In this document: positions 15,371-61,850 of the stretch, in pieces | Layout of the letters: the number at the start of each line of letters is the position of its first letter | How positions within the stretch are numbered: the stretch's first letter is position 1 | Source of the DNA: Polynucleobacter sp. MG-5-Ahmo-C2 | GTDB taxonomy: Bacteria; Pseudomonadota; Gammaproteobacteria; Burkholderiales; Burkholderiaceae | Assembly: GCF_018687735.1 (NCBI RefSeq) | Contig: NZ_CP061304.1 | Location: 1,364,001 to 1,428,000, forward strand | Length of the DNA: 64,000 nucleotides | Direction of reading: 5' to 3' | The notes under the pieces: model-generated | The model's database searches: none | What the model was told of the DNA's origin: nothing | The model's input: only the letters and a program-made list of their open reading frames with translations | Program-made: the position numbers and the translations under genes

Positions 15371-16789
15371 GTGAATAAAAAAGCGACTTACAGCTCACTC
15401 TTGTCGAGAGGAGCCCTCATTCTGACTGGATATATCTGTTTTAGCCTGCTAACCGGGTTGGTATCTACGGCCAAAGCCCAATCAAACCAAGCTCGTAACA
15501 AAGTCATTGTTCAAAATACCAAGCCAGTTGGCTTTAAAGATAATGCGGCCAGAGGCTCCTCAAAGACGAATAGTCTTAATCCCGCCCTCTTTCAGCGCAA
15601 AGACCCCAGCGAAGTAGATCTTGATAGCGCCAGCAATCTAGACTACCGAGTTATTCAGGGTTGCCTGCGACGTAACTTCAACGAAGATAATTTACCCGCC
15701 AGTATCGGCATTGATAACCGTCAGTTTTCAGAGTTCTTTAAAACTCAAACTAAAACATTCTTTGATCGCATGCGCGGAGATTGCATTCCTTATGCAGCTG
15801 CATTTGGTAGTCGCAATCGCTTTGACTCCCTAAGCATCATGAATGGCCCCATTCAGGACAACAAGACAGAGGTGTGGACATTTACACCATCTGCATTTGG
15901 TGGCTTCTTAATTCAACAAGACTATCTCAGAAATGAATCTAAAAATCTCACTGAAATTCGGATCCCATTGCGAGATGTTTTATACGATCCTCGCAAGGTC
16001 GGGGACAAACTGCCAGTCGAATTGGTTTGGGAATTAAATTCCCTCATCAAACAGATCTATCCCGAAGAAAATAACTCACTCGAAAATACCAATAGCGTAG
16101 TCCGCTTAATTATTGACTTTGGCGATCGTGAGCGATGGGCTCAAATTTGGGCCGCTGAAATTATTGACCCAGCAAATAAAGAAGTGTTTGCAAGCGCTTA
16201 CTGGGTAGATCGCACTGACATACCAGGGGGATTCTTTACCGGCGGCGGCGAATCTTTAGAGCGCTCATTCTGGACTAATCCACTCAGTTATCGGCGTATT
16301 TCAAGGGGTGTTGGTAGTGTCCGCGCTTCGAGCAAACGCCCAAGTGCAAAAGCACCCACAGCTCAAGCAGCTCCTCCAAAGCAGCGCTACCGTACCCATA
16401 TGGGCATTGACTATGCAGCCCCAATAGGCACGCCTGTCTTTAGCGTAGCCAATGGCAAGGTTGCTCATATTGGCTTTAGTGGCGCCTTTGGTAACTTAAT
16501 TGTCTTGGAGCACCCTGGAAACTATCACACCTACTATGCTCACCTAAGTAACTACAACGTTGAATTAGAAGTAGGTAATGATGTGCGCCGTGGTTTGGAG
16601 ATTGGTTATGTTGGGTCCACTGGAAGATCCACTGGCCCACACCTTCATTTTGAGCTTAGAAAAAATGGTGTGTATATCGATCCTTACGGATTAAAGACTC
16701 AACTAGATTTATGGTCTATGCGTGATAACGAGAGTGGTCAGCTAACAAGAGAAATTCTTTTGCTAGGCAGCCCCATCAAACACAACTGA
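15371..16789 (+). CDS. M23 family (LytM) murein peptidase with long N-terminal region
   Basis: This 472-residue exported protein starts at GTG with a long signal peptide ending near TAKAQ. An N-terminal domain of about 300 residues that I do not recognise precedes a short low-complexity Ala/Lys/Pro linker (about 318-338) and a C-terminal LytM domain. Zinc ligands His343 and Asp347 (THMGID) and the HLH motif 424-426 are intact, so it should be an active peptidoglycan endopeptidase. It has no operon partner and is followed by a terminator. The GTG has poor SD spacing, so the start is uncertain. Confidence 0.9.
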   Translation: MNKKATYSSLLSRGALILTGYICFSLLTGLVSTAKAQSNQARNKVIVQNTKPVGFKDNAARGSSKTNSLNPALFQRKDPSEVDLDSASNLDYRVIQGCLRRNFNEDNLPASIGIDNRQFSEFFKTQTKTFFDRMRGDCIPYAAAFGSRNRFDSLSIMNGPIQDNKTEVWTFTPSAFGGFLIQQDYLRNESKNLTEIRIPLRDVLYDPRKVGDKLPVELVWELNSLIKQIYPEENNSLENTNSVVRLIIDFGDRERWAQIWAAEIIDPANKEVFASAYWVDRTDIPGGFFTGGGESLERSFWTNPLSYRRISRGVGSVRASSKRPSAKAPTAQAAPPKQRYRTHMGIDYAAPIGTPVFSVANGKVAHIGFSGAFGNLIVLEHPGNYHTYYAHLSNYNVELEVGNDVRRGLEIGYVGSTGRSTGPHLHFELRKNGVYIDPYGLKTQLDLWSMRDNESGQLTREILLLGSPIKHN

Positions 16790-16797
16790 TGGCAAAT

Positions 16798-16828
16798 AAA
16801 AATAGGGTCCACATGGACCCTATTTTTT
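16798..16828. terminator. Bidirectional intrinsic terminator
   Basis: An inverted repeat (AAAATAGGGTCC, loop ACAT, GGACCCTATTTT) has T-runs on both strands. It lies between the convergent M23 peptidase and universal stress protein genes. Confidence 0.9.
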
Positions 16829-16851
16829 CTAAAGATTTAATTTCTGAATAA

Positions 16852-17292
16852 TTAACCAAGGACCAATACTGGTAACTTTGAGTGCACGATTACTTCATGG
16901 GTTTCGCTACCAAGCAAGATACCTTTGATGCCAGTTCGCTTATGTGAAGCCATCACAATAACATCAGCCTTTGCTTTTTTAGCGCCATCCAAAATACCTT
17001 CAGATAAATTGGTATTAGAGATATGCATTGTTTTTGCTTTAATACTTGATCCAAGTGCAGTGGCGGCTTTTTTAAACACATCCTTTGCGTAAGCATCACA
17101 TACCTTCTGGTGATCTTTTTGGGTAATTCCATAACCCATAGTGCTATCGGAATAAATTGTTGGAGGCAGGGGATCGGAAACATACACCAAGGTCACAGCA
17201 GCGCCATCAGCCTTTGCAAGTTCAGCCACTTTCTTCAAAGATTTTTTGCTGACATCTGAGCCATCGACTGGCACCAATAAATGCTTAAACAT
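16852..17292 (-). CDS. Universal stress protein (UspA family)
   Basis: This 146-residue single Usp domain runs from MFKHLLVPVDGSDVSKKSL to ADVIVMASHKRTG and ILLGSETHEVIVHSKLPVLV. The last segments match the ATP-binding GxxG-x9-GS-type signature in form, with Glu-Thr following the GS. Usp proteins bind ATP and support survival in growth arrest. AGGGAG lies five bases before the ATG. It is monocistronic. I saw no FNR-type box in its 5' region despite the nearby fnr gene. Confidence 0.93.
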   Translation of the reverse strand: MFKHLLVPVDGSDVSKKSLKKVAELAKADGAAVTLVYVSDPLPPTIYSDSTMGYGITQKDHQKVCDAYAKDVFKKAATALGSSIKAKTMHISNTNLSEGILDGAKKAKADVIVMASHKRTGIKGILLGSETHEVIVHSKLPVLVLG

Positions 17293-50506: not shown

Positions 50507-50536
50507 AAAATACCAGCCCCAGGGTTGGTATTTTTA
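50507..50536 (+). terminator. Intrinsic terminator after the nitroreductase gene
   Basis: AAAAATACCA at 50507-50516 pairs with TGGTATTTTT at 50527-50536, and the stem may extend into GCCC/GGGT. T-rich sequence follows on the plus strand. It lies 17 bp after the stop codon. Confidence 0.8.
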
Positions 50537-50596
50537 TTTATAGTAGATCTATGTACGGCGAATAAGCGATGCCTGGAGTTCTGTAGAATCAAGTAC

Positions 50597-51253
50597 ATGA
50601 AGCCAACTATCAAAATTGACTACGTATCAGATATAGCTTGTCCTTGGTGCGCCGTGGGACTTGGCAATCTCAATCAAGCAATAGCCCAGCTAAGCGATAA
50701 GGTAGACTTTGAAGTGCATTTTCGACCCTTTGAACTTAATCCCAATATGCCTTTGGGCGGACAAGATGCCATTGAGCACCTCACTGAAAAGTACGGCTTA
50801 AGCGCAGAGCAAGTCAAAGCCAATCAAGCCAATATTCGCACCAAAGCATTAGAAGCTGGATTTGAATTTCATCCAGAAGGCCGGAAACGGGTTTACAACA
50901 CCTTTAATGCCCATCGCCTTTTGTACTGGGTCGCCAAAGAATATGACCTGCAAAAACAGGCCGCTCTTAAAAAAGAATTACTCAACACCTACTTTTGTAT
51001 GGCAGTAAACCTAGATGATCAGAACAATTTACTAGAGGCAGTTAAACGAGCTGGCTTAGATGCTCAAAGAGCACAAGAAGTTCTGAGTGCTAATGAATTT
51101 GCCAATGAGGTCAGGAAAGAAGAGGCTGCGTATACAGGCGCAGGCATCAGCTCTGTTCCGTCGATCATCCTGAATGATCAATACCTCTTACAAGGCGCTC
51201 AAGCCCCAGAGTCCTTTGTGAATGCATTTGAGCAGCGCATTCAAGGGGCCTAA
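50597..51253 (+). CDS. DsbA family oxidoreductase (FrnE-like)
   Basis: This 218-residue cytoplasmic protein starts MKPTIKIDYVSDIACPWCAV with the CPWC active site at about residues 15-18. FRPFELNPNMPLGG and the C-terminal GISSVPSIILNDQYLLQGAQ match FrnE/2-hydroxychromene-2-carboxylate isomerase-like proteins. No signal peptide is present. The ATG at 50597 begins the conserved domain; 24 extra codons upstream look non-coding. It is the last ordinary gene before the first tRNA-Met remnant. Confidence 0.9.
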   Translation: MKPTIKIDYVSDIACPWCAVGLGNLNQAIAQLSDKVDFEVHFRPFELNPNMPLGGQDAIEHLTEKYGLSAEQVKANQANIRTKALEAGFEFHPEGRKRVYNTFNAHRLLYWVAKEYDLQKQAALKKELLNTYFCMAVNLDDQNNLLEAVKRAGLDAQRAQEVLSANEFANEVRKEEAAYTGAGISSVPSIILNDQYLLQGAQAPESFVNAFEQRIQGA

Positions 51254-51258
51254 AGAGA

Positions 51259-51335
51259 TAAACCTCACCATTGTGCATGAGGGTTTGCTTTTCTGGTGCT
51301 CACCAGGACTTAAATCTGGGGCCAAAGGATTTATG
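51259..51335 (-). repeat. Displaced 3' half of tRNA-Met plus its terminator (copy C, most decayed)
   Basis: The plus strand contains ATGAGGGTTTGCTTTTCTGG followed by a degraded copy of the tRNA-Met 3' half (CCA at 51294-51296; T-arm and variable region to the anticodon loop at about 51335). It shares orientation and the downstream terminator-like stem with the intact gene at 58162. A 2-base deletion in the acceptor strand and several substitutions rule out function. I read it as the outermost att site of an integrated segment. Confidence 0.8.
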
Positions 51336-51465
51336 AAAGTAGATGCTCAAAGAAAACCACTAGGATTTCAAGAGGTTATGCCTCCTAAATATCGGTGAGC
51401 GAGCATTTGTGTGACTAAATTAACAAGATCACAAGAAACGCTCCCCCATTCTTTGGTTTTCAAAG

Positions 51466-52782
51466 TCAAAAAACTTTTGAGTGATGACCTAGAGCAAACT
51501 CAGAAAATTTAGCCACACTAAGTAACTTGACATCGCTTCGATAATTTCCAATCAGCTGTATGCCCAGTGGCAATCCATTCCTTGACTTACCTGCAGGGAT
51601 AGTGATCGAAGGAATTCCCAAAAAACTCCAGAGAGCACAGAAAATCGGATCGCCAGTAGAGACTAAGCTCTTTGGGGCTTCCCCACTTGCAGGGGCCATT
51701 AAGAATGCATCAAATTCATCAAAATAAGCACCGATAGAGGCACGCAGTTTTTTCTGTAAAAACTTGGCGGCAATATAGGCAGGTGCACTGTGTTGTAAAC
51801 CTCTTGCTACTAACTCTTGAATATGAATGCTCAGTAAATCATTTACTTTTTCAGAATGAGCCGCATGAATTTCTGCGGCTTCAGATTCCATAATAAGATT
51901 CATTGCCTGAATCGCATCCCAATACTCTTGTGGCAAGGATAGTTTTTGAACGACAGCACCTGACTCCTCAAGCTTTTGCGCGGCCAATTTCAAAGCCTGC
52001 TTTTGGTCATCGGACATCATATGATCTAGCGGCGTTTCCAGTAAGGCGATCTTCGGCTTATCTAACATAGGCAATTCTCTGTTGACACTAAATACCAGAT
52101 CGGGGAGAACAATTAACTCCGGGTCAGACGAATCACTATTTTTTAAATTATTAAAAGCAAACGCCATATCATCAACTGACCGTGTGAAAAATCCAATATG
52201 GTCGAGCGAATAAGACAAGGCGTGAGCTCCAGACTTGGAAACTGCTCCATAGCTCGCCTTGTATCCCACTACCCCGCAATATGCTGCCGGCCTAATGATG
52301 GAACCTTGTGTTTGCGAACCTAGCGCCAAAGGAACAATCCCGGCACCAACAGATGCCGCTGATCCACTAGAGGATCCACCGGGCGTATGTTCTGCATTAA
52401 TAGGGTTTGTCGTTGGACCCGGATTGCGCCATGCAAATTCAGTGGTAACTGATTTACCAAAAATTACTCCGCCAAGACTACGAATTTTTTTAACGATGGC
52501 AGCATCTTCAACGGGAGTTTTATCTTTATAGATAGGTGACCCATTGGTCGTTGGAAGATCAAACGTATTAATAATGTCTTTTACGGCAATTGGAATTCCT
52601 GAGAGTGGGCCAGACTTTATCTGCCTTGCCATTGACTCCATTGAAGCTCTTGAGACAAAAGCCTTGAGAACCGGCTCCACTTCATTCGCTTTATCAAAAG
52701 ATGCTTGCACCACATCCATGGGTTTTAATTGATTAGCAGCAATTAAGTTACAAGCCTCAGTTATTCCAATTATTTTTTTCAT
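51466..52782 (-). CDS. Amidase signature family hydrolase
   Basis: This 438-residue enzyme has the amidase-signature Ser-Ser-Lys machinery: IPIAVKDIINTFDLPTTNGS contains the catalytic Lys and GGSSSGSAASVGAGIVPLALG the Ser cluster, followed by GSIIRPAAYCGVVGYKAS. It is not GatA, being shorter and unaccompanied by GatB/C. It heads away from the ABC transporter genes as the last gene in their direction (63 bp gap), so it probably hydrolyses the imported amide. There is no clear SD before the ATG. Confidence 0.9.
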   Translation of the reverse strand: MKKIIGITEACNLIAANQLKPMDVVQASFDKANEVEPVLKAFVSRASMESMARQIKSGPLSGIPIAVKDIINTFDLPTTNGSPIYKDKTPVEDAAIVKKIRSLGGVIFGKSVTTEFAWRNPGPTTNPINAEHTPGGSSSGSAASVGAGIVPLALGSQTQGSIIRPAAYCGVVGYKASYGAVSKSGAHALSYSLDHIGFFTRSVDDMAFAFNNLKNSDSSDPELIVLPDLVFSVNRELPMLDKPKIALLETPLDHMMSDDQKQALKLAAQKLEESGAVVQKLSLPQEYWDAIQAMNLIMESEAAEIHAAHSEKVNDLLSIHIQELVARGLQHSAPAYIAAKFLQKKLRASIGAYFDEFDAFLMAPASGEAPKSLVSTGDPIFCALWSFLGIPSITIPAGKSRNGLPLGIQLIGNYRSDVKLLSVAKFSEFALGHHSKVF

Positions 52783-52845
52783 ATTTTTTAGTTAATTCAA
52801 AGAAATGGGGCGTAAAAATACGCCCCAGTTGATCAATAATCGCGA

Positions 52846-53817
52846 TTACTTCAGTTTTATAGCGTTTTGAATATAAGTTTCGTTAATGAAGTTTTCAAAT
52901 ACAGGCTGCTCTTTTAGATTACCCAAGGCAATTTGTGTGTCCATGGAAATTTTGAGTGCTGCAGGAGTAATTTGAACGCTCTTAGGAAACACGTTCTCAC
53001 TCATCATGCGAGTCACTGCATTTTCAACTACTTGTGGATCTAGCGTTGGGAATTCTTTCTTAGCAACCTCGATTGCACCCTTAGGATCTTTAGCCATAAA
53101 ACGAAGTGCAACTTCCATGCCATTAACCATTCTCTGAGCAGAAACAGGGTCAACAGTCTTCATTGCAGTAATGGAAGAGAAAGCGTAAGCGCCATAAGTT
53201 TTCGGGAAGCCCAAAACAACCTTCATTCCCTTAATTGCTACTTGATCTAGGCCTGGCTCGTATAAGACTGCTACTTTAGCTTGGCCGCCCAATAAGGCTG
53301 CTGGCTCAGTACCAAGAGGAACTTGGATCATATCAATATCTTTATCACTCATGCCATTTTCTTTAAGCAACTTTAGGAATAAAGAAGTGCTTGTTGTTGG
53401 CATTAAACCAGTCACTACTTTTTGACCCTTGATATCTTTAATGCTAGTAAATTTAACATCAGGAGCTGTTGCAATCCATACGGCTGCACCATTCACTGCA
53501 TTACTAATCACACCAACATTGGCACCTTTGGAGGCAGCAATAGCAGTCCACTCAGGACCATGGATTGAAAATTGTGAACTTCCTGAAAGGACTGAAGATA
53601 ATGCTGCGGTAGGAGATCCTGCAGTTTCTTTAATGACACTTAAACCTTGGTCTTTAAAGAAACCTTTATCAATTGCGACATAAAGGGGTAAATACAACAT
53701 CGACTGAAATGCCTGAGAAATAGTGACTGTTTTTACTTCAGCAGTTGCGCTAAACGACGCGCCAGAAATGGCTAACGCCGCAACCGTTACTTGTAGCTTT
53801 CTATAAATCGATTTCAT
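52846..53817 (-). CDS. ABC transporter substrate-binding protein (SsuA/ThiY/NMT1 family)
   Basis: This 323-residue protein has a signal peptide ending SATAEV and an NMT1-like periplasmic domain: VTISQAFQSMLYLPLYVAID, KGFFKDQGLSVIKETAGSPT, and VLSGSSQFSIHGPEW. These receptors bind sulfonates, nitrate, pyrimidines or related small compounds. A strong SD (GGAGG) precedes the ATG. The permease gene lies 29 bp upstream in the operon. Confidence 0.9.
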   Translation of the reverse strand: MKSIYRKLQVTVAALAISGASFSATAEVKTVTISQAFQSMLYLPLYVAIDKGFFKDQGLSVIKETAGSPTAALSSVLSGSSQFSIHGPEWTAIAASKGANVGVISNAVNGAAVWIATAPDVKFTSIKDIKGQKVVTGLMPTTSTSLFLKLLKENGMSDKDIDMIQVPLGTEPAALLGGQAKVAVLYEPGLDQVAIKGMKVVLGFPKTYGAYAFSSITAMKTVDPVSAQRMVNGMEVALRFMAKDPKGAIEVAKKEFPTLDPQVVENAVTRMMSENVFPKSVQITPAALKISMDTQIALGNLKEQPVFENFINETYIQNAIKLK

Positions 53818-53846
53818 GAAAAACCTCCGTGAGATTATTAAAAAAA

Positions 53847-54662
53847 TTACATCCGAATTTGTGTACGTCCTGCATCATCGCGCCATGGGAATAAGAGGCG
53901 CTCTAGTGCATCAATGCCGTGATACAGAAAGAAACCTACGATCATGAGCATGAATAAACCAACCCAAACTGAATTAAGTTCGTACAAGCTTGATGCGTTG
54001 TAAATCATGTGTCCCAAGCCAGCCTTTGATGAAATGAATTCACCTACAACCGCACCAACCAATCCAAAACCCACGTTGATACGAAAGTTGGAAACGATTG
54101 CTGGCATTGAAGAAGGAACAACTACCTGACGAAATATTTGCTTGCGATCAGCGCCCATCGAATACAGCAACGATTGCAAATCCTTGTCAGCCTCTTTGGT
54201 TGCTTGATGGGCCGCAATAAGGGCAATGATGGCTGTCATGGAGACGACCAATACAACCTTAGCACCTAAGCCCGTACCAAACCAAAGCAAAATAATGGGA
54301 GCCAAGGCAATTTTTGGGACGCTATTAATAGCAACAATGAATGGTTCAACAATTTGAGAAACCCATTTCGAATACCACAATAGCAAACCAATGCTTGTTC
54401 CAACAAGGGTGCCAATGACAAAACCCAATAAAGCCTCCCAGAGTGTGTATCCCGTATCAATAAAGATGGAGTAATCCATCACACTTGCGATAAAACGCTT
54501 CCAAATACCAAACGGAGTGCCAATTAAAAACTCTGAGATAAGCCCAAACTCTGCCAGGGTTTGCCAAATAGCAAAGAAAATGACCACTGATAAGATTTGG
54601 ATTAGGGACTTTCCAAGACCCGTATCCAGCATTTGACTCATATTGCGCTTTTCTTGACTCAT
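53847..54662 (-). CDS. ABC transporter permease (SsuC/NitT-TauT type)
   Basis: This 271-residue six-helix permease has the EAA-loop region reading YSMGADRKQIFRQVVVPSSM before PAIVSNFRINVGFGLVGAVV. The length and topology fit the nitrate/sulfonate/taurine class. The start codon overlaps the stop of the ATPase gene (ATGA). It is part of the island operon 55447 to 51466. Confidence 0.92.
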   Translation of the reverse strand: MSQEKRNMSQMLDTGLGKSLIQILSVVIFFAIWQTLAEFGLISEFLIGTPFGIWKRFIASVMDYSIFIDTGYTLWEALLGFVIGTLVGTSIGLLLWYSKWVSQIVEPFIVAINSVPKIALAPIILLWFGTGLGAKVVLVVSMTAIIALIAAHQATKEADKDLQSLLYSMGADRKQIFRQVVVPSSMPAIVSNFRINVGFGLVGAVVGEFISSKAGLGHMIYNASSLYELNSVWVGLFMLMIVGFFLYHGIDALERLLFPWRDDAGRTQIRM

Positions 54663-55447
54663 ACCACTTCATCCTTTCTAGTTTGGATATCCAACTCTGA
54701 ACAAAGCAGATGAAAATATTCTCCGAAATTTTTATGCGATCTAGCCTCTATTGGCGAGGAGCGCTCAATATCAATTTGATGCACATTTTTTACTAGGGTG
54801 GGCCTGGTACTTAGAGCAACTACCCGTTTAGATAGAGCGACAGCTTCATCAATATCGTGAGTGACCAGAATGACTGTCTTTTTAAACTTTGCTACGGCAT
54901 CTAACAAAACGCTCTCAAGGTACAGCCTGGTTTGGTAATCTAAAGCTGAAAATGGCTCATCCAACAAGAGGATGTCAGGATCCATTAGGAGAGTACGAAT
55001 GAGTGCAACGCGCTGTCGCATACCACCTGATAGAGTTTGAGGGTAAGCTTTTTCAAATCCAGATAAGCCAAAAGTATTGAGATAGTCTCTTGCCTTTTCC
55101 ACTCCATTAGCATCATCCTCGCCACGCACCCGCAATCCAAGCATGACATTCTCAAGAACTGTGCGCCATGGGAACAGCAGATCTTTTTGCATCATGTAGC
55201 CCACCTTACCTCTTAGGCTTTGAATTTTGTTGCCTCGATAGATCATATTGCCGCTATCAGTCTCTAGCAGACCGGCGATGATATTGAAGATGGTTGACTT
55301 TCCGCAGCCACTAGGCCCGATGATGCTCAAAAAATCCTGCTCCATCACGTCAAATGTGAGTCCGTTAAGAACGGGAACTGGTCCGCCTTTGCTGGCGAAT
55401 GATTTATGTATTGAATCCAATGAAAGCTGAACTACAGGGTTAGTCAC
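54659..55447 (-). CDS. ABC transporter ATP-binding protein (SsuB/TauB type)
   Basis: This 262-residue ATPase has Walker A GPSGCGKSTIFNII, Q-loop MQKDLLFPW, signature LSGGMRQRVALIRTLL and Walker B ILLLDEPFSALD. It is the first gene of the transporter-amidase operon. The start was placed at GTG 55447 because GGAG lies seven bases upstream; a TTG two codons earlier (55453) has impossible SD spacing. Confidence 0.92.
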   Translation of the reverse strand: MTNPVVQLSLDSIHKSFASKGGPVPVLNGLTFDVMEQDFLSIIGPSGCGKSTIFNIIAGLLETDSGNMIYRGNKIQSLRGKVGYMMQKDLLFPWRTVLENVMLGLRVRGEDDANGVEKARDYLNTFGLSGFEKAYPQTLSGGMRQRVALIRTLLMDPDILLLDEPFSALDYQTRLYLESVLLDAVAKFKKTVILVTHDIDEAVALSKRVVALSTRPTLVKNVHQIDIERSSPIEARSHKNFGEYFHLLCSELDIQTRKDEVV

Positions 55448-55518
55448 TATCAATCTCCATTAAATATTTTTATTAGGGTTGATACTTACATGCGCTTGCA
55501 CTACAAACGAGTCCAATT

Positions 55519-55564
55519 GCATTCATTTAGTGCGGCATTCATCGATAAGAGTGCAGCATTCATC
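55519..55564 (-). repeat. Direct repeats upstream of the ABC-transporter operon
   Basis: GCATTCAT occurs three times on the plus strand, at 55519, 55535 and 55556. The last two belong to 14-base near-identical units (GTGC[G/A]GCATTCATC) with a 21-bp period, i.e. two helical turns. They lie about 70-115 bp upstream of the ATPase start, a position suited to a regulator-binding site. Apart from these and the terminator at 55795, I see nothing else in the 55454-55890 gap. Confidence 0.45.
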
Positions 55565-55792
55565 AATCTGGTGCGCGCCTTCAACTCATTGTTGAATCAA
55601 AATAAAAAATGTCGATTGGTTTATATCGATGTTTATTTTGGGATTGATCTCATCCGAAGCCATCAGCACTTGCAATATTGATTAACCACAACCTACAAAT
55701 AGCTCATTGCTTAACTAGCAAACCTATATGCTTATTGGTGTTGAAGTGAACGATGTCTGGAGATTGCTTACACACCGAGTGGCATGGAAAGA

Positions 55793-55826
55793 AAAACGAC
55801 TTAGGAATTTCTCCCTAAGTCGTTGT
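55793..55826 (-). terminator. Intrinsic terminator of the island nitroreductase gene
   Basis: AACGACTTAGG at 55795-55805 pairs with CCTAAGTCGTT at 55814-55824 across an 8-base loop, and a T-run follows on the minus strand. It lies about 65 bp beyond the nitroreductase stop. Confidence 0.85.
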
Positions 55827-55890
55827 TTTCATTGGCAGCCCTACCAGAACTTGATCCTGGATAAAAGCTCAATTCAAAAAAGACCTGAAT

Positions 55891-56493
55891 TTAAAAATGG
55901 TTTTCAATGATCATTTCTGATTTAGGGATAAATCCTGGCTTTGGCCATGCTGGTTTAATTCCCTTGCCAATTACCAACATCGCAGCAATGGCATAGTCTT
56001 TAGGCAAATGAATCAACTCCGCAACCTTGTCAAAATCAAAACCAACCATTGGGCAAGAATCGTAGCCCATTGCTTTAGCTGAAAGCATCATGGTTTGCAA
56101 CATGATTCCAGCAGAGCGCATTGCTTCGTCTCTTTGTAGTTGCTCTTTACCAGCGTAAAAAGGATGAATCCAGGGAACTAATATATCTTGAGCTTCTTTA
56201 GGAGCATTGACCCAATATCGGGCAGGATCTTTTTCCCATGCCTTGATATCAACAGTCACTACAAATAGTAAAGATGCCTCGGTAACTTGAGCTTGATTAT
56301 TTGCAGCTTCACGCAACTGAGCTCTGAGGGCCTTGTCAGTAACATTCACCAAACGCCAGTGTTGGATATTGAATGAAGATGGCGCTTGCATAGCGAGATC
56401 TAACAGCTGGTCAGTCTCTTGCTTAGTAAATTCATGGCTTGGGTCAAAATGCTTAACAGCCCTGCGTTCGCGGATTACATCAAATGTATTCAT
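55891..56493 (-). CDS. Nitroreductase family protein
   Basis: This 200-residue flavoprotein begins MNTFDVIRERRAVKHFDPSH (FMN phosphate-binding RRAVKHF). FNIQHWRLVNVTD and the late LPKDYAIAAMLVIGKG complete the family pattern. It probably reduces a nitro or quinone substrate. AAGGA precedes the ATG. It has its own terminator and lies just inside the copy-B repeat, so it belongs to the outer integrated segment together with the amidase-ABC operon. Confidence 0.9.
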   Translation of the reverse strand: MNTFDVIRERRAVKHFDPSHEFTKQETDQLLDLAMQAPSSFNIQHWRLVNVTDKALRAQLREAANNQAQVTEASLLFVVTVDIKAWEKDPARYWVNAPKEAQDILVPWIHPFYAGKEQLQRDEAMRSAGIMLQTMMLSAKAMGYDSCPMVGFDFDKVAELIHLPKDYAIAAMLVIGKGIKPAWPKPGFIPKSEMIIENHF

Positions 56494-56536
56494 TAACTTC
56501 CTTGATGAGATTTAAACCTTGATCATAAGGCAATAT

Positions 56537-56621
56537 TTAGAAGACAAAATCCCCACCATTTCTGATGAGGGTTTGCTTTTCTGGTGAGCCCACCAGGACT
56601 TAAACCTGGGACCAAAGGATT
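56537..56621 (-). repeat. Displaced 3' half of tRNA-Met plus its terminator (copy B)
   Basis: Over the 81 bases 56541-56621 I count four mismatches to 58121-58201, which holds the intact tRNA-Met 3' half (from the anticodon loop to CCA) and its terminator. Identity stops abruptly within the anticodon loop, where the sequence becomes unrelated. One substitution alters the conserved T-loop C. This is the pattern of a tRNA 3' end displaced by integration of the inner 1.6-kb segment. Confidence 0.88.
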
Positions 56622-56703
56622 CCGGCTTGTGTTAGTTTCCTAACTCCCTGGACTATGCCTTCATCATATCGATTGCTCGACTTAGATGGGTGCCGTTTAG
56701 TCT

Positions 56704-57744
56704 CTATCCCAAATTACTTTGAGCAGCTTTAATCATTTTTTTCACCTCAAGACTCTCATTAATGGAGTGAATGGTAATTTGCGGATTTTGTTTAACAAAA
56801 ACGCGAAACACTTCGTCTGCAAATGCCTGACCAATTGATTCAACACCCTTAAAATCCAACAGTACAGTCTTAAAACGATCAACGCGATTTAAAATTCGCT
56901 TTGCCTGAGAGCGCGAAATAAGCTGGCCACCTTCGTGTAGAGCCAGCTTCACCGGAACAACGGTTTTATTAAACGCGTAATCTTCGTCTTCTGTACCACT
57001 AAAACTATCAAATACCGTACGCAATATTCTTTCTGAATTAAGCGCTATTTTCATAACAACCCTAGTTCCTTGATGACTTTTTTCGTTATGAAGTAAAAAG
57101 TCCATTCCCGAACCGTCAGCGTGTGTAAAGACTAAATCACCAGAGAAAATAAAGAATTCATCAAAAGCACGGGATGAGAAAAAGATTCCTTGCCCAGTAT
57201 GATTACTTGGATCAGTAGTGAGCTTTCCTTTGCTCAATTCCAAAATAGACTCACGTGCATCGTGCAGCTTTAATAATCTAGCAATATGGTTAAAAATTCC
57301 CTCGCCATTATCAACAATTGATATTGAAACAGAATCGGGCGTTCTTTCCACGTTGATGTAGACCTCAGTACCCTCTGAATGATCAATGGCGTTGTTTAGC
57401 ATTTCAGTAAAACCGTAATGGCAAATATTGGCAATTTCTTTAGGCAAGCCATTAAATATTTCACCAAAATCACGCGAATAGACTTCAGACTCCTCAAGCC
57501 CCTTTAATTTAAATAGGCCATCATGAAATCGTTTCACACCCAACTGATATACACGCGCCTTCGTACTACCGCTGGAAGCTAAAAATCCATCCTTAACTAA
57601 CGCTGCAAAATGTGCATGGATAGCCTGCCTAGTAAGGCCGAACCTGTCCATTGCGGCATGAGCTAAATCGAGTTGATTGGCTCTAACGCCATCCACCAAG
57701 AACTGACGTATTTCTTGGGAGCGCTTTGTATTGGCAAATTTCAT
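56704..57744 (-). CDS. HTH-GHKL ATPase-DUF4325 (STAS-like) fusion protein
   Basis: This 346-residue protein has three parts. Residues 1-70 form a winged-helix-like domain (LTRQAIHAHFAALVKDGFLA). Residues about 105-235 are a GHKL ATP-binding domain with N-box EMLNNAIDHS (114-123), G1 DNGEGI (145-150) and G2 HTGQGIFFSSRAFDE (182-196). Residues about 262-345 are a DUF4325 STAS-like domain (GGQLISRSQAKRIL, GVESIGQAFADEVFRVF). No phosphoacceptor His or receiver domain is seen, so this resembles an anti-sigma kinase and its antagonist fused to a DNA-binding domain. It is the only intact gene in its island and is preceded by three 21-bp repeats. Confidence 0.88.
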   Translation of the reverse strand: MKFANTKRSQEIRQFLVDGVRANQLDLAHAAMDRFGLTRQAIHAHFAALVKDGFLASSGSTKARVYQLGVKRFHDGLFKLKGLEESEVYSRDFGEIFNGLPKEIANICHYGFTEMLNNAIDHSEGTEVYINVERTPDSVSISIVDNGEGIFNHIARLLKLHDARESILELSKGKLTTDPSNHTGQGIFFSSRAFDEFFIFSGDLVFTHADGSGMDFLLHNEKSHQGTRVVMKIALNSERILRTVFDSFSGTEDEDYAFNKTVVPVKLALHEGGQLISRSQAKRILNRVDRFKTVLLDFKGVESIGQAFADEVFRVFVKQNPQITIHSINESLEVKKMIKAAQSNLG

Positions 57745-57752
57745 GTCTATTT

Positions 57753-57810
57753 TTGTAAAGTTTTATGAAATTATTGTAAAGTTTTATGAAATTATTGTAA
57801 AGTTTTTGGT
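57753..57810 (-). promoter_or_regulatory. Three 21-bp direct repeats overlapping the promoter of the GHKL-DUF4325 gene
   Basis: TTGTAAAGTTTTATGAAATTA (plus strand, 21 bp) occurs at 57753 and 57774, and its first part again at 57795. The spacing is exactly 21 bp, two helical turns, so a protein would contact one face. On the minus strand a possible promoter TTGTCA-18-TACAAT places its -10 inside the first repeat met by polymerase. The array starts 9 bp before the start codon, which fits autorepression through the gene's own HTH. Confidence 0.7.
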
Positions 57811-57844
57811 CAAGGATTGACAAGAAACCCTGAATAAATAGTAC

Positions 57845-58003
57845 TTATATGCGCTCTGAGGCCCTTTTAACCCTATTATCGCCAAATCCAAGCTGAGTCT
57901 CTTTGGTAGTAGCTCGTATCCACTTGTTATCCACCTTATAGCGACATTGCCATACACATACTTTAGCTTCTGAGCCCAGGCTAGGACAACCTGATTGGAG
58001 GAA
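57845..58003 (-). pseudogene. Possible remnant of a tyrosine-type integrase N-terminal region
   Basis: An uninterrupted minus-strand frame without a start codon, bounded by stops, encodes about 52 residues containing VWQCRYKVDNKWIRATTKE. This resembles the N-terminal part of site-specific integrases (a strand reading WQ-R, then basic residues and KxT). It is adjacent to the tRNA-Met 3' end, where integrase genes of tRNA-targeting elements normally lie. The rest of the gene is absent. The assignment is by pattern only. Confidence 0.4.
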
Positions 58004-58096
58004 TTACTGGAGTCAATTTAGCCAAAAGAAAGTGTGGCTAAGAGTGCTGACTAATGGAGGGTTTGTGGGGATGAATGGAAGGTAATAGATGGGGCG

Positions 58097-58117
58097 AGCG
58101 TTACTTAAAGTAACGCT
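58097..58117. repeat. Near-perfect palindrome next to the tRNA terminator
   Basis: AGCGTTACTT and its complement flank a single central A. The 21-bp palindrome lies just outside the tRNA-Met terminator. It could be a dimer-binding site or part of an attachment region; there is no gene start nearby. Confidence 0.5.
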
Positions 58118-58120
58118 TAA

Positions 58121-58156
58121 AAGACAAAACCCCCACCATTACTGATGAGGGTTTGC
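58121..58156 (-). terminator. Terminator of tRNA-Met
   Basis: On the minus strand AAACCCTCATC pairs with GGTGGGGGTTT (11 pairs including G-T) across a six-base loop, followed by TTGTCTTTT. It begins within ten bases of the CCA end. The same stem, more or less decayed, is preserved at both displaced tRNA copies. Confidence 0.85.
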
Positions 58157-58161
58157 TTTTC

Positions 58162-58238
58162 TGGTGGGCCCACCAGGACTTGAACCTGGGACCAAAGGAT
58201 TATGAGTCCTCTGCTCTAACCAACTGAGCTATAGGCCC
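58162..58238 (-). tRNA. tRNA-Met (anticodon CAT, elongator)
   Basis: The 77-base gene includes an encoded CCA. All arms form: acceptor GGGCCTA with TGGGCCC, D stem GCTC/GAGC, anticodon stem GAGGA/TCCTT with loop CTCATAA (anticodon at 58202-58204), and T stem CCAGG/CCTGG with loop TTCAAGT. A paired first base (G1-C72) marks an elongator rather than an initiator tRNA. Its 3' half is repeated at 56582-56621 and 51294-51335. Confidence 0.95.
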
Positions 58239-59378: not shown

Positions 59379-61850
59379 TCAATCCTCTTCGAGGAAAGTC
59401 TTGAGTTTGTCGCTGCGGCTAGGATGACGCATTTTTCTCAAGGCCTTAGCTTCGATCTGACGAATGCGCTCACGGGTAACATCAAACTGCTTGCCAACTT
59501 CTTCGAGAGTATGGTCTGTGCTCATTTCAACACCAAAGCGCATGCGCAATACTTTTGCTTCACGTGGTGTTAACGAATCCAGAACGTCTTTGACAACATC
59601 GCGCATGGATTCGTGAAGGGCCGCTTCAGCTGGAGCCAAGGTATTGCCATCTTCAATGAAATCACCCAAATGGGAATCTTCATCGTCGCCGATTGGCGTT
59701 TCCATAGAGATAGGCTCTTTAGCAATCTTCATAATCTTACGAATCTTGTCTTCCGGAATCTCCATCTTCAGTGCCAAAGTTGCAGCATCTGGCTCATGAC
59801 CAGTTTCTTGCAAGATCTGACGGCTGATACGGTTCATCTTATTGATCGTCTCAATCATATGAACTGGAATACGGATCGTACGTGCTTGGTCGGCAATAGA
59901 TCGGGTAATCGCCTGACGAATCCACCAGGTTGCATAGGTGGAGAACTTATAACCACGACGGTATTCAAACTTATCTACCGCCTTCATCAAACCAATATTG
60001 CCTTCTTGAATCAAATCCAAGAACTGCAAACCACGGTTAGTGTATTTCTTGGCAATAGAGATTACCAAACGTAAGTTGGCTACAGTCATCTCACGCTTTG
60101 CTTCACGGGCACGCTTCTCACCCGCAATCATCTGCTTGTTTACCTCTTTCAACTCTGGAAGTGGAATAACGACATTCTTCTGAATATCGATTAACTTCTG
60201 TTGAAGTTCCTGAATCGCAGGCACGTTACGCTGCAAGAGTGCGCTATACGGCTTGTTTTCTTTGAGTAACTTGTCAGTCCAAGTCAGGTTCATAGACATC
60301 TTAGGAAACTCTTTTAATACTTCTCCACGATTGACGCCAACTTTATCCACTAACAAGTTCACGATGCCACGCTCAAGCTTCCATACTTGGTCTACTTGCG
60401 AGCGCATGGTGTCACACAACTTCTCAACACTTTTCGCAGTTAAACGGAAGCCTAAGAGTTCACCACGAATCAGATCTTGCGCCTTAATGTAGGCTGGACA
60501 GTTATATCCCTCTTTATCAAAGGCACGGCGCATCTTGTCGGCTTGTGTGCGAACAATCGCGAATTTCTCGAGGGAGATTTGTTTTAATTCCTCAAGCTGT
60601 TTGGCGTTAGCTGTTGCGGCACCGCCGCCACCGCCGCCTTCATCATCGCCCTCATCTTCACCTTCTTCGGCATCTGGATCAATCTCTGGCTCTTCAGGCC
60701 CCAACTTAATATCTTCTGCATTTGGATCAACTAAACCATCAACAAACTGATCAATCTCCATCTCACCGCTAGCAATCTTGTCAACGTTGCTCAAGATTTC
60801 ACTAATAGTGACTGGGCAAGCAGCTAAGGCCATCACCATGTCTTTAAGACCAGCCTCAATCTTCTTGGCAATAACAATCTCGCCTTCACGAGTCAGCAAA
60901 TCTACTGTACCCATCTCACGCATGTACATACGCACTGGGTCAGTTGTACGTCCAAATTCTGAATCCACTGTAGAAAGGGCTGCCTCAGCCTCTTCTTCAG
61001 CCTCTTCTTCAGAGGCCGCAGCTGCCGTGTTGTCGGAGAGGATTAATGTCTCTGCGTCTGGAGCCTGCTCGTAAACAGTGATACCAATGTCGTTTAACAA
61101 GCTGATCAAAGTCTCTAATGCATCAGCATCAGACAACTCATCAGACATCACATCATTCATCTCGCCATGGGTTAGGTAACCCTTGGACATACCCATCTTA
61201 ATCAAGGTCTTCAAGCGAGCACGACGTAACTCTTGTTGCTCTTCAGTGCCCAACTGCTGTGCCGCAAATTCTTTTAAAAGTGCTTTTTCTTTTGCCTTAC
61301 GCTCACGTGCTTTTTGACGATCCGTTAGAACTGGTTCAGCGCCATCAGTAGGAGCCTCAGGCTTCGCTTTACGACCGCGCTTTTTTTCTTCTTCGACTAC
61401 AGGAGCAACAAGCTCAACTGGCTTAGCTTTTTTACCTTTAATCTCTTCAACTTTTGGTGCTACTGGTGCTTTGCCTTTTTTTGCTGGCTCTGCCTTAGCA
61501 GCCTTCGCAGGCGCTACCTTTGGGGCAGCTTTTACTGGCTTGACTGGAACTTTTTTGGCGACTGGCTTAGCGACCACTTTCTTAGCTACTGGTTTGGCTG
61601 GGGCTTTTGCCTTCACTGCTGGCTTGGCAGCAGCTTTCACTGGTTTAGCTGGAGCTTTCTTGGCTGCTGGCTTAGCGACCACTTTCTTAGCCGCTGGTTT
61701 GGTAGCAGCTTTCTTGGCTGCTGGCTTAGCGACCACTTTCTTAGCCGCTGGTTTGGTAGCAGCTTTTGCTTTAGGTGCTGGTTTAGCTGGAGCCTTAGGC
61801 TTAGCCACTACTTTTTTAGCTACTGGTTTTTTGGTCTTGGTATTAGGCAT
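59379..61850 (-). CDS. rpoD: RNA polymerase sigma factor RpoD (sigma-70) with long basic N-terminal extension
   Basis: This 823-residue housekeeping sigma factor is about 200 residues longer than E. coli RpoD. Residues 1 to about 185 are Lys/Ala/Pro-rich repeats like those of histone-H1-type proteins. Region 1.1 follows ([20 protein letters not shown]), then 1.2 ([20 protein letters not shown]), an acidic non-conserved insert ending in a Gly run, region 2 ([40 protein letters not shown]) and region 4 ([20 protein letters not shown]). It lies downstream of dnaG on the same strand, as in other proteobacteria. Confidence 0.97.
61653..61760 (-). repeat. Perfect 54-bp tandem duplication inside rpoD
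   Basis: Bases 61653-61706 and 61707-61760 are identical and the next copy begins at 61761. Each unit encodes 18 residues of the PAAKK-type repeat. A perfect tandem repeat of this length is prone to slippage, so strains should differ in copy number. Confidence 0.92.

Follow-up and report, generated by a model that had tools for sequence, protein, structure and literature searches.

Pieces of a tRNA-Ile2 gene in Polynucleobacter as probable worn remains of integrative islands with an intron-bearing replacement tRNA

In tRNA-dependent lysogeny, as the available part of its description sets out, phages integrate by means of a tyrosine integrase, destroy the host tRNA, and carry a compensating tRNA (Guerrero-Bustamante and Hatfull 2024, PMC10865867). 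The standard tRNA-integrated genomic island, in the part of the Islander account that was available (PMC4383910), restores the disrupted gene at the junction from its own sequence, whereas the intron-bearing form of the islands considered here brings a second whole gene. Here, we analyze positions 51259 to 58238 of a 64,000-nucleotide stretch of the chromosome of Polynucleobacter sp. MG-5-Ahmo-C2 (NZ_CP061304.1, positions 1,364,001 to 1,428,000; hereafter the window), which contain three copies of the 3' half of one tRNA gene. Comparison with other Polynucleobacter genomes leads us to read these pieces, with a probability of roughly three in four, as the worn remains of integrative islands at the tRNA-Ile2 gene beside rpoD, of a kind that would carry a replacement tRNA shielded from integration by a group I intron. 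The window genome is labeled G000, other genomes carry other G numbers, and individual loci are labeled L.

The elements are best seen intact in the relatives. Matches to the group I intron family RF00028 occur in 61 of the 151 Polynucleobacter genomes (47 above the cut-off, with up to four matches per genome), and the loci follow a fixed plan: the host tRNA is split, its 5' half, ending in GGACTCAT, is followed by an element left end, and about 200 bp inside that left end lies a second, complete tRNA-Ile2 gene with an intron in its loop. The left end is some 160-220 bp long, starts with AAGAAAGAAGCCC or a variant of it, and contains repeats, CTTACACACC and GGTGTGTAGTAAA among them; one left end, used as a query, matched 73 places in 56 of the 151 genomes and gave no match in the window genome. 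Of the 72 intron cores that were read, 37 are preceded at a distance of 197-256 bp by another tRNA 5' half, which continues into a left end, and 17 stand behind a junction of a right end with a left end, and thus belong to tandem elements; the others comprise 3 behind rpoD without a left end, 1 at a contig edge, and 14 without a recognized 5' half. Many distal tRNA 3' halves are preceded by a right end, which comes in four types, carries arm repeats, and has ...CTCAT directly before AATCC. Thirty right ends were found in 25 stretches; 17 of them lead to a tRNA 3' half without an intron, the other 13 to a left end or to other DNA. As none of these 30 leads to an intron, the host gene was intron-free when it was entered. 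Where a right and a left end are joined, they form an inverted-repeat core, GGGCTTCT-gctCTCATAAga-AGAAGCCC. In the relatives, the chromosomal attachment site (attB) reads ..GA CTCATAA TCC and that of the element (attP) ..CT CTCATAA GAA, and the letters common to both are CTCATAA, a 7-bp core in the anticodon loop. The anatomy of the elements, their junctions, and their recurrence were observed directly, and it is clear from them that the intron-bearing elements do not rebuild their target at the junction as a conventional tRNA island does, since the host 5' half continues into the left end.

From this plan, we infer the following course of events. A tyrosine integrase would join element and chromosome at CTCATAA in the anticodon loop, and the host tRNA would be split and not rebuilt because the shared core is so short, its 5' half staying at the left end and its 3' half being pushed beyond the right end. 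The element compensates with its own complete tRNA-Ile2 gene located ~200 bp inside the left end, and in most cases this replacement gene is interrupted by a self-splicing group I intron within CTCATAA. The intron most likely destroys the core in the DNA and would keep the replacement gene from the element's own or a related integrase, and splicing in the cell would restore the tRNA. The outer junctions would then allow elements to accumulate in tandem. The window has lost the left end, the small recombinase, the 5' part of the replacement tRNA, and almost the whole large integrase, and it keeps the right end, the 3' end of the intron with its 3' exon, a 31-codon scrap of integrase, and cargo. 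These parts, and the genes around them, are laid out in the window as follows.

58162-58238, minus strand: intact, intron-free tRNA with anticodon CAT (ARAGORN), presumably tRNA-Ile2
58121-58201, minus strand: copy 1, tRNA 3' half plus terminator
57946-58118, minus strand: conserved block, which leads into the large integrase gene in several relatives
57866-57958, minus strand: remnant of the large integrase gene, spanning codons 25-55 (full length, 448), 77% amino acid identity, E 1e-9
56704-57744, minus strand: HATPase plus STAS-like (DUF4325) protein, 346 amino acids, stop codon inside the intron remnant
56622-56706, minus strand: last 85 nt of a group I intron
56541-56621, minus strand: copy 2, 3' exon and terminator of the intron-bearing replacement tRNA
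55891-56493, minus strand: nitroreductase-family gene, which also adjoins a complete intron-bearing tRNA in G077, and is so placed in G090
54659-55453, minus strand: ABC transporter ATPase, cargo
53847-54662, minus strand: ABC transporter permease, cargo
52846-53817, minus strand: NMT1/THI5-like substrate-binding protein, cargo
51466-52782, minus strand: amidase, cargo
51332-51462, minus strand: element right end, type ii, with decayed arm repeats (84% over 115 of 130 nt, E 4e-31)
51259-51335, minus strand: copy 3, displaced host tRNA 3' half (attR) with decayed terminator
50525-51253, plus strand: DsbA-family gene, host flank outside the island

What precedes copy 2 shows this copy to be a former replacement tRNA carried by the island rather than a plain attachment repeat. 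Upstream of copy 2 in the direction of the tRNA, the sequence ...GAGACTAAACGGCACCC...GATGAAGGCATAGTCC...AAGCCGG is the 3' end of a group I intron, with no tRNA 5' half, and the identity of copy 2 to the tRNA stops in the anticodon loop because the intron begins there. The remnant, which lacks the 5' part of the intron, falls short of the RF00028 gathering score of 50, at 27.6 bits (E 6.6e-4), and is the sole RF00028 match reported in the window genome. The piece from the intron to the nitroreductase gene is 86% identical over 823 bp to G077, where the counterpart of copy 2 has both tRNA and intron complete and stands behind a right-end/left-end junction, and 91% identical over 2029 bp to G090, where the joint between the HATPase gene and the intron is also present. 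Five genomes (G000, G012, G076, G144, and G090) share this joint at one and the same position, with the HATPase-STAS gene connected downstream to the intron core, and a fragment of the integrase lies upstream of the HATPase gene in the window, G012, G076, and G144; it was not found in G090. As an observation in its own right, the HATPase-STAS (DUF4325) gene looks like a cassette spreading through homologous recombination.

The preliminary description of this DNA had reported that the tRNA 3' half and its terminator occur three times in one orientation, with identity ending in the anticodon loop, a usual crossover point of tyrosine integrases, and had placed integrations at this tRNA. All of this is borne out, and the site is an integration hotspot of tyrosine-recombinase islands: copies 1 and 2 are identical at 77 of 81 positions, copies 1 and 3 match in 65 of 86 aligned columns, all three share the same orientation, and the 7-bp core in the relatives agrees with a crossover in the loop. 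The E-values of copies 1, 2, and 3 against the 3' half and terminator of a relative (3.6e-41, 3.3e-32, and 2.5e-11, in a small search set) exclude a chance origin of the repeats. A dispersed repeat unrelated to the tRNA is likewise ruled out, copies 2 and 3 being joined to parts of an element. The leftmost copy had been taken for a displaced 3' half at the edge of an island, and this too holds, as a type ii right end adjoins copy 3; right end, copy 3, and DsbA-family gene jointly match G059 with 78% identity over 890 bp, and the DNA between the tRNA and the DsbA-family gene is variable cargo. This right end is the only element end found in the window, in which no trace of a left end was found. 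The expected clean empty site was not seen in the relatives, since the shortest spacing between tRNA and DsbA-family gene that was opened (~2.8 kb in G008) holds two further 3' halves. The absence of a complete integrase had been correctly noted, but a fragment of one is present at 57866-57958. Searches of phage and plasmid collections, which may omit records near the window genome, returned no record covering 80% of the query, and the best 20 of 713 and of 691 records match chiefly over the tRNA itself.

The name tRNA-Met, used in that description and also given by ARAGORN to the gene at 58162-58238, comes from the CAT anticodon. The sequence looks like tRNA-Ile2(CAU), which we take to be its identity. 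An initiator tRNA-Met is located elsewhere in the window genome (G000:C1:472580), and a pattern for the elongator tRNA-Met matched just this CAT tRNA gene, with 3 mismatches, a result that neither helps nor hurts the Ile2 identity. The intact gene occurs only once in the window genome (search at up to 2 mismatches) and lies near rpoD, which was named from its sequence and is found at 59379-61850, with a gene for an outer membrane protein in between.

How this intact, intron-free gene arose bears on the history of the locus. It could itself be an intron-free replacement borne by an element and joined to the host promoter through loss of the left end between two 5' halves, and we consider the odds of this to be even. 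The integrase leader block and the integrase fragment directly follow it, as is often the case for replacement tRNAs; intron-free replacements with a host-like promoter are found in G014, G137, G058, G073, G020, and G098; and intron-bearing forms without a left end are found in G105 and G023. However, the window has kept no recognizable left end, and an intact tRNA would likewise result if an element were excised.

The position and distribution of the introns are what suggest a protective role. The common (type-1) intron is inserted at CTCAT^AA, and a different intron sits at CT^CATAA (both ends are visible in the G019 strain, the start in G095 and G103, at 33.9 and 35.6 bits), so that two different introns split the same 7-bp core at two positions. 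The intron in G029 (L301, C59; 30 bits) resembles the CTCAT^AA type at its start and the other type further on, an apparent chimera as judged by eye. Behind a left end, 63 replacement genes have an intron and 6 do not (n=69), and 5' halves not behind a left end comprise 7 with an intron and 32 without; 3 of these 7 are misfiled or unclear, as L022 and L124 have both a host half and a left end and L138 is at a contig edge. This count comes from related loci, which are neither independent nor a random sample, and it leaves out rows with <120 nt downstream, loci L158-L187, and the named-record loci L211-L290. The intron-free places are unevenly sampled, as 30 of the 78 were opened singly and the other intact rows come from stretches fetched for other reasons, and with the loci also being related, the Fisher value of 9e-15 is not used as a probability.

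The type-1 introns have kept their pairing. Covariation is seen in 21 of 58 predicted pairs of the type-1 introns (58 distinct sequences, being those of the 72 with both exons), and the splice-site letters, a G as the last intron base and a U before the intron, are invariant in 58 of 58. Of the 24 single-contig genomes that match RF00028, 20 gave no hit to an intron-free tRNA-Ile2 in a search allowing up to 2 mismatches, and splicing is therefore presumably essential in these 20 genomes.

Candidates for the acting recombinase are encoded by the elements. Small tyrosine recombinases of 188-212 amino acids (10 in 9 of the 25 stretches) each lie within the interval from left to right end. A large integrase of ~448-469 amino acids, which matches PHROGs family phrog_1 (E 1e-31 to 1e-33), is encoded downstream of the replacement tRNA at distances ranging from <1 kb to ~26 kb; it is full length at 11 places in 10 stretches and is reduced to fragments in G000 (the window), G012, G063, G076, and G144. 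Overall, an element-encoded tyrosine integrase, large or small, is present in 10 of the 25 stretches, and the window has the fragment alone. G002 has kept a right end, and no integrase fragment was found there. The small integrase was not found in the window genome, where 3 matches to PF00589 (312, 343, and 340 amino acids) lie elsewhere, among the matches listed at E ≤1e-5. A strict regular expression returned no integrases in 17 stretches; a profile search did find integrases. Relatives of the small integrase (80 loci) also occur near other tRNAs, and among 24 loci with a tRNA that were compared, a second whole 3' half follows the anticodon at 7 (L216, L218, L229, L238, L240, L248, and L287), a second whole 5' half is present at 6 (L243, L246, L252, L254, L264, and L265), and 11 have no clear second half. 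These second halves would fit a crossover in the anticodon loop that is repaired by a tRNA half.

Several observations weigh against intron shielding or against the element model as a whole. The window's own tRNA is intact and intron-free, 6 of the 69 replacement genes behind a left end are intron-free, and in G105, G023, G003, and G025, intron-bearing tRNAs stand behind rpoD without a left end. Neither recombinase is universal: no match to the small integrase was found in the stretches of, for example, G090, G063, G117, G131, G010, G069, and G124, and none to the large integrase in those of G090, G117, and G131. For the large integrase, Pfam and NCBIfam give no family name, and PHROGs alone names one. 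Group I introns favor anticodon loops, and the position of the intron inside the core is for this reason less improbable than it looks.

This last point leads to the strongest alternative, in which the replacement tRNA works as in tRNA-dependent lysogeny and a group I intron entered that gene as a mere passenger, passed on by inheritance and playing no part against the integrase. Anticodon loops are the usual homes of such introns, intron-free replacements exist, and the 58 type-1 introns form a clearly related group, all of which would be expected of a passenger. It is harder, though, to account in this way for two different introns at two positions within the same 7 bp, with one apparent chimera besides, or for the scarcity of introns in genes that are not behind a left end. 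In addition, the intron-free replacement in G073 ends in a 3' half of a different kind, with arm-like repeats behind it, as though another element had entered it. We therefore regard a mere passenger as unlikely, albeit a possibility to be taken seriously. The preliminary description had proposed that two ordinary insertions of different age followed one another, that each restored the gene and left a 3' half, and that the middle copy is the edge of a 1.6-kb insertion. Three same-sense 3' halves of graded identity are what this would leave, and in relatives this tRNA does seem to undergo ordinary restoration by a 3' half, as do other tRNAs with the small-integrase family. Still, we consider this model highly improbable, as only a single element end was found in the window, and we reject it for copy 2, which is preceded by an intron and not by an element end, has a complete counterpart in G077, and records the remains of an intron-bearing tRNA rather than a second insertion.

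Returning to islands with an intron-bearing replacement tRNA, the same plan recurs outside the genus, in a Rhodoferax record and in two other families. The Rhodoferax record (L250) combines a host 5' half with arms and a second tRNA that bears an intron, and the small integrase lies ~5 kb away. With its intron-bearing tRNA as the query, 12 of 399 genomes of the order matched; 3 of these are Polynucleobacter, G904 matches over the 3' half alone, though its tRNA loop also looks interrupted, and the remaining 8 all have an intron-bearing tRNA. In G1041 and G920, from families other than that of the window, the native 5' half is still found upstream of the intron-bearing tRNA, and no second 5' half was recognized in the other 6. 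In G920, where the split native tRNA lies beside rpoD, a 2.8-kb insert is flanked on one side by the native 5' half and on the other, following ...CCTCAT, by a 3' half of native type; it encloses an intron-bearing tRNA of a different sequence type. A displaced 3' half was not found within 40 kb in G1041, and relatives of both integrases were not found in 7 stretches from G1041, G920, G961, G1114, and G940. The G920 insert (L325:1225-4165) has a few small open reading frames, some of them by eye RES-domain and Xre/antitoxin-like, and may be a minimal non-autonomous element.

Wider intron searches led mostly to other tRNAs. A family-wide search matched 67 of 249 genomes, and the 23 loci L188-L210 comprise 18 tRNA-Leu(taa), 2 tRNA-Gln(ctg), and 3 CAT-type genes; the 3 CAT-type loci are all from Polynucleobacter, and the Leu and Gln introns are in other genera of the family. 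A class-wide search matched 49 of 369 genomes, and 3 of the 30 loci opened gave a match to the core, 2 of them in tRNA-Leu-like genes. Within Polynucleobacter, the RF00028 match of G115 (L044, C1:264000-270000) is, by eye, also in a tRNA-Leu-like gene and not in tRNA-Ile2. The tRNA-Ile(CAU) of Azoarcus carries an isolated self-splicing group I intron in the same tRNA and at the same insertion point, and the intron of L317 (G1114) resembles what we take to be the Azoarcus ribozyme, a lead rather than a test. We propose a possible island origin for the Azoarcus intron. The broader notion, that islands shield the tRNA that they bring along by means of a ribozyme in the core, which would hide the gene from the integrase in the DNA and still give a normal tRNA in the RNA, that the arrangement has multiple origins involving different introns, and that Azoarcus-type tRNA-Ile introns are domesticated relics, seems to us evenly poised between true and false.

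The cargo of the islands varies. An element in G059 (L061/L062, C2:56000-88000) has genes of the nitrate-assimilation type (molybdopterin oxidoreductase, nitrite-reductase-type domains, and an NMT1-like transporter), and one in G032 has a type I methylase and an ATPase. For the first element of G031, PHROGs was run on 10 of the 21 proteins listed and gave integrases, an endonuclease, and unknowns, with no virion genes among these 10. Several details of the surroundings were also observed. Between rpoD and the split tRNA, L046 has at ~16400-17080 a small gene pair that by eye is VapB/VapC-like, and sequence similar to its tRNA-upstream region recurs in L005, L024, L211, and L295. Unrelated terminators follow the same tRNA 3' half in different elements (L031 and others), as if swapped at the end of the tRNA. 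On the rpoD side of L309, three tRNA 5' halves lie in a row, which could reflect an attack on an intron-free replacement or recombination between elements.

If the proposed role is correct, it has implications beyond this locus. Group I introns in bacterial tRNA genes would gain a use, that of making an essential gene immune to site-specific recombination, which would explain why the intron sits in tRNA-Ile2, why it travels, and how an essential tRNA locus collects many islands without being broken again. Why bacteria keep introns in tRNA genes would become a question open to a direct recombination assay. For the window itself, a readable history of an element takes the place of two decayed insertions.

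Each of the known systems shares part of this plan. Tycheposons, compared here through a secondary description and not the original definition, likewise have a tRNA at one border, a tyrosine recombinase, nutrient cargo, and hosts among aquatic bacteria, but the available text of that description mentions no intron (PMC10872708). In IStrons, according to the accessible part of their account, group I intron splicing also renders an insertion harmless, but the intron is joined to an insertion sequence (PMC4227781), whereas in the Polynucleobacter elements, it lies in the replacement gene. The islands of Islander, in the same part of that account as cited above, have in common with the present ones a tyrosine integrase, a tRNA target, and a displaced tRNA fragment at the far end (PMC4383910). 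A further parallel is tRNA-dependent lysogeny, with a tyrosine integrase, a short common core in a tRNA gene, and a carried tRNA of the same kind; in contrast to the phages in the available text of that study, which mentions no intron in a replacement tRNA and has the word "intron" once, in a reference title (PMC10865867), the Polynucleobacter elements usually have an intron within the core, carry metabolic and restriction cargo, and stack in tandem. No description of an intron-bearing replacement tRNA was found in the literature searched on lysogeny, islands, and tycheposons, with most subscription journals outside reach. The principle of these islands thus resembles that of tRNA-dependent lysogeny, and the intron in the replacement tRNA is apparently its new part.

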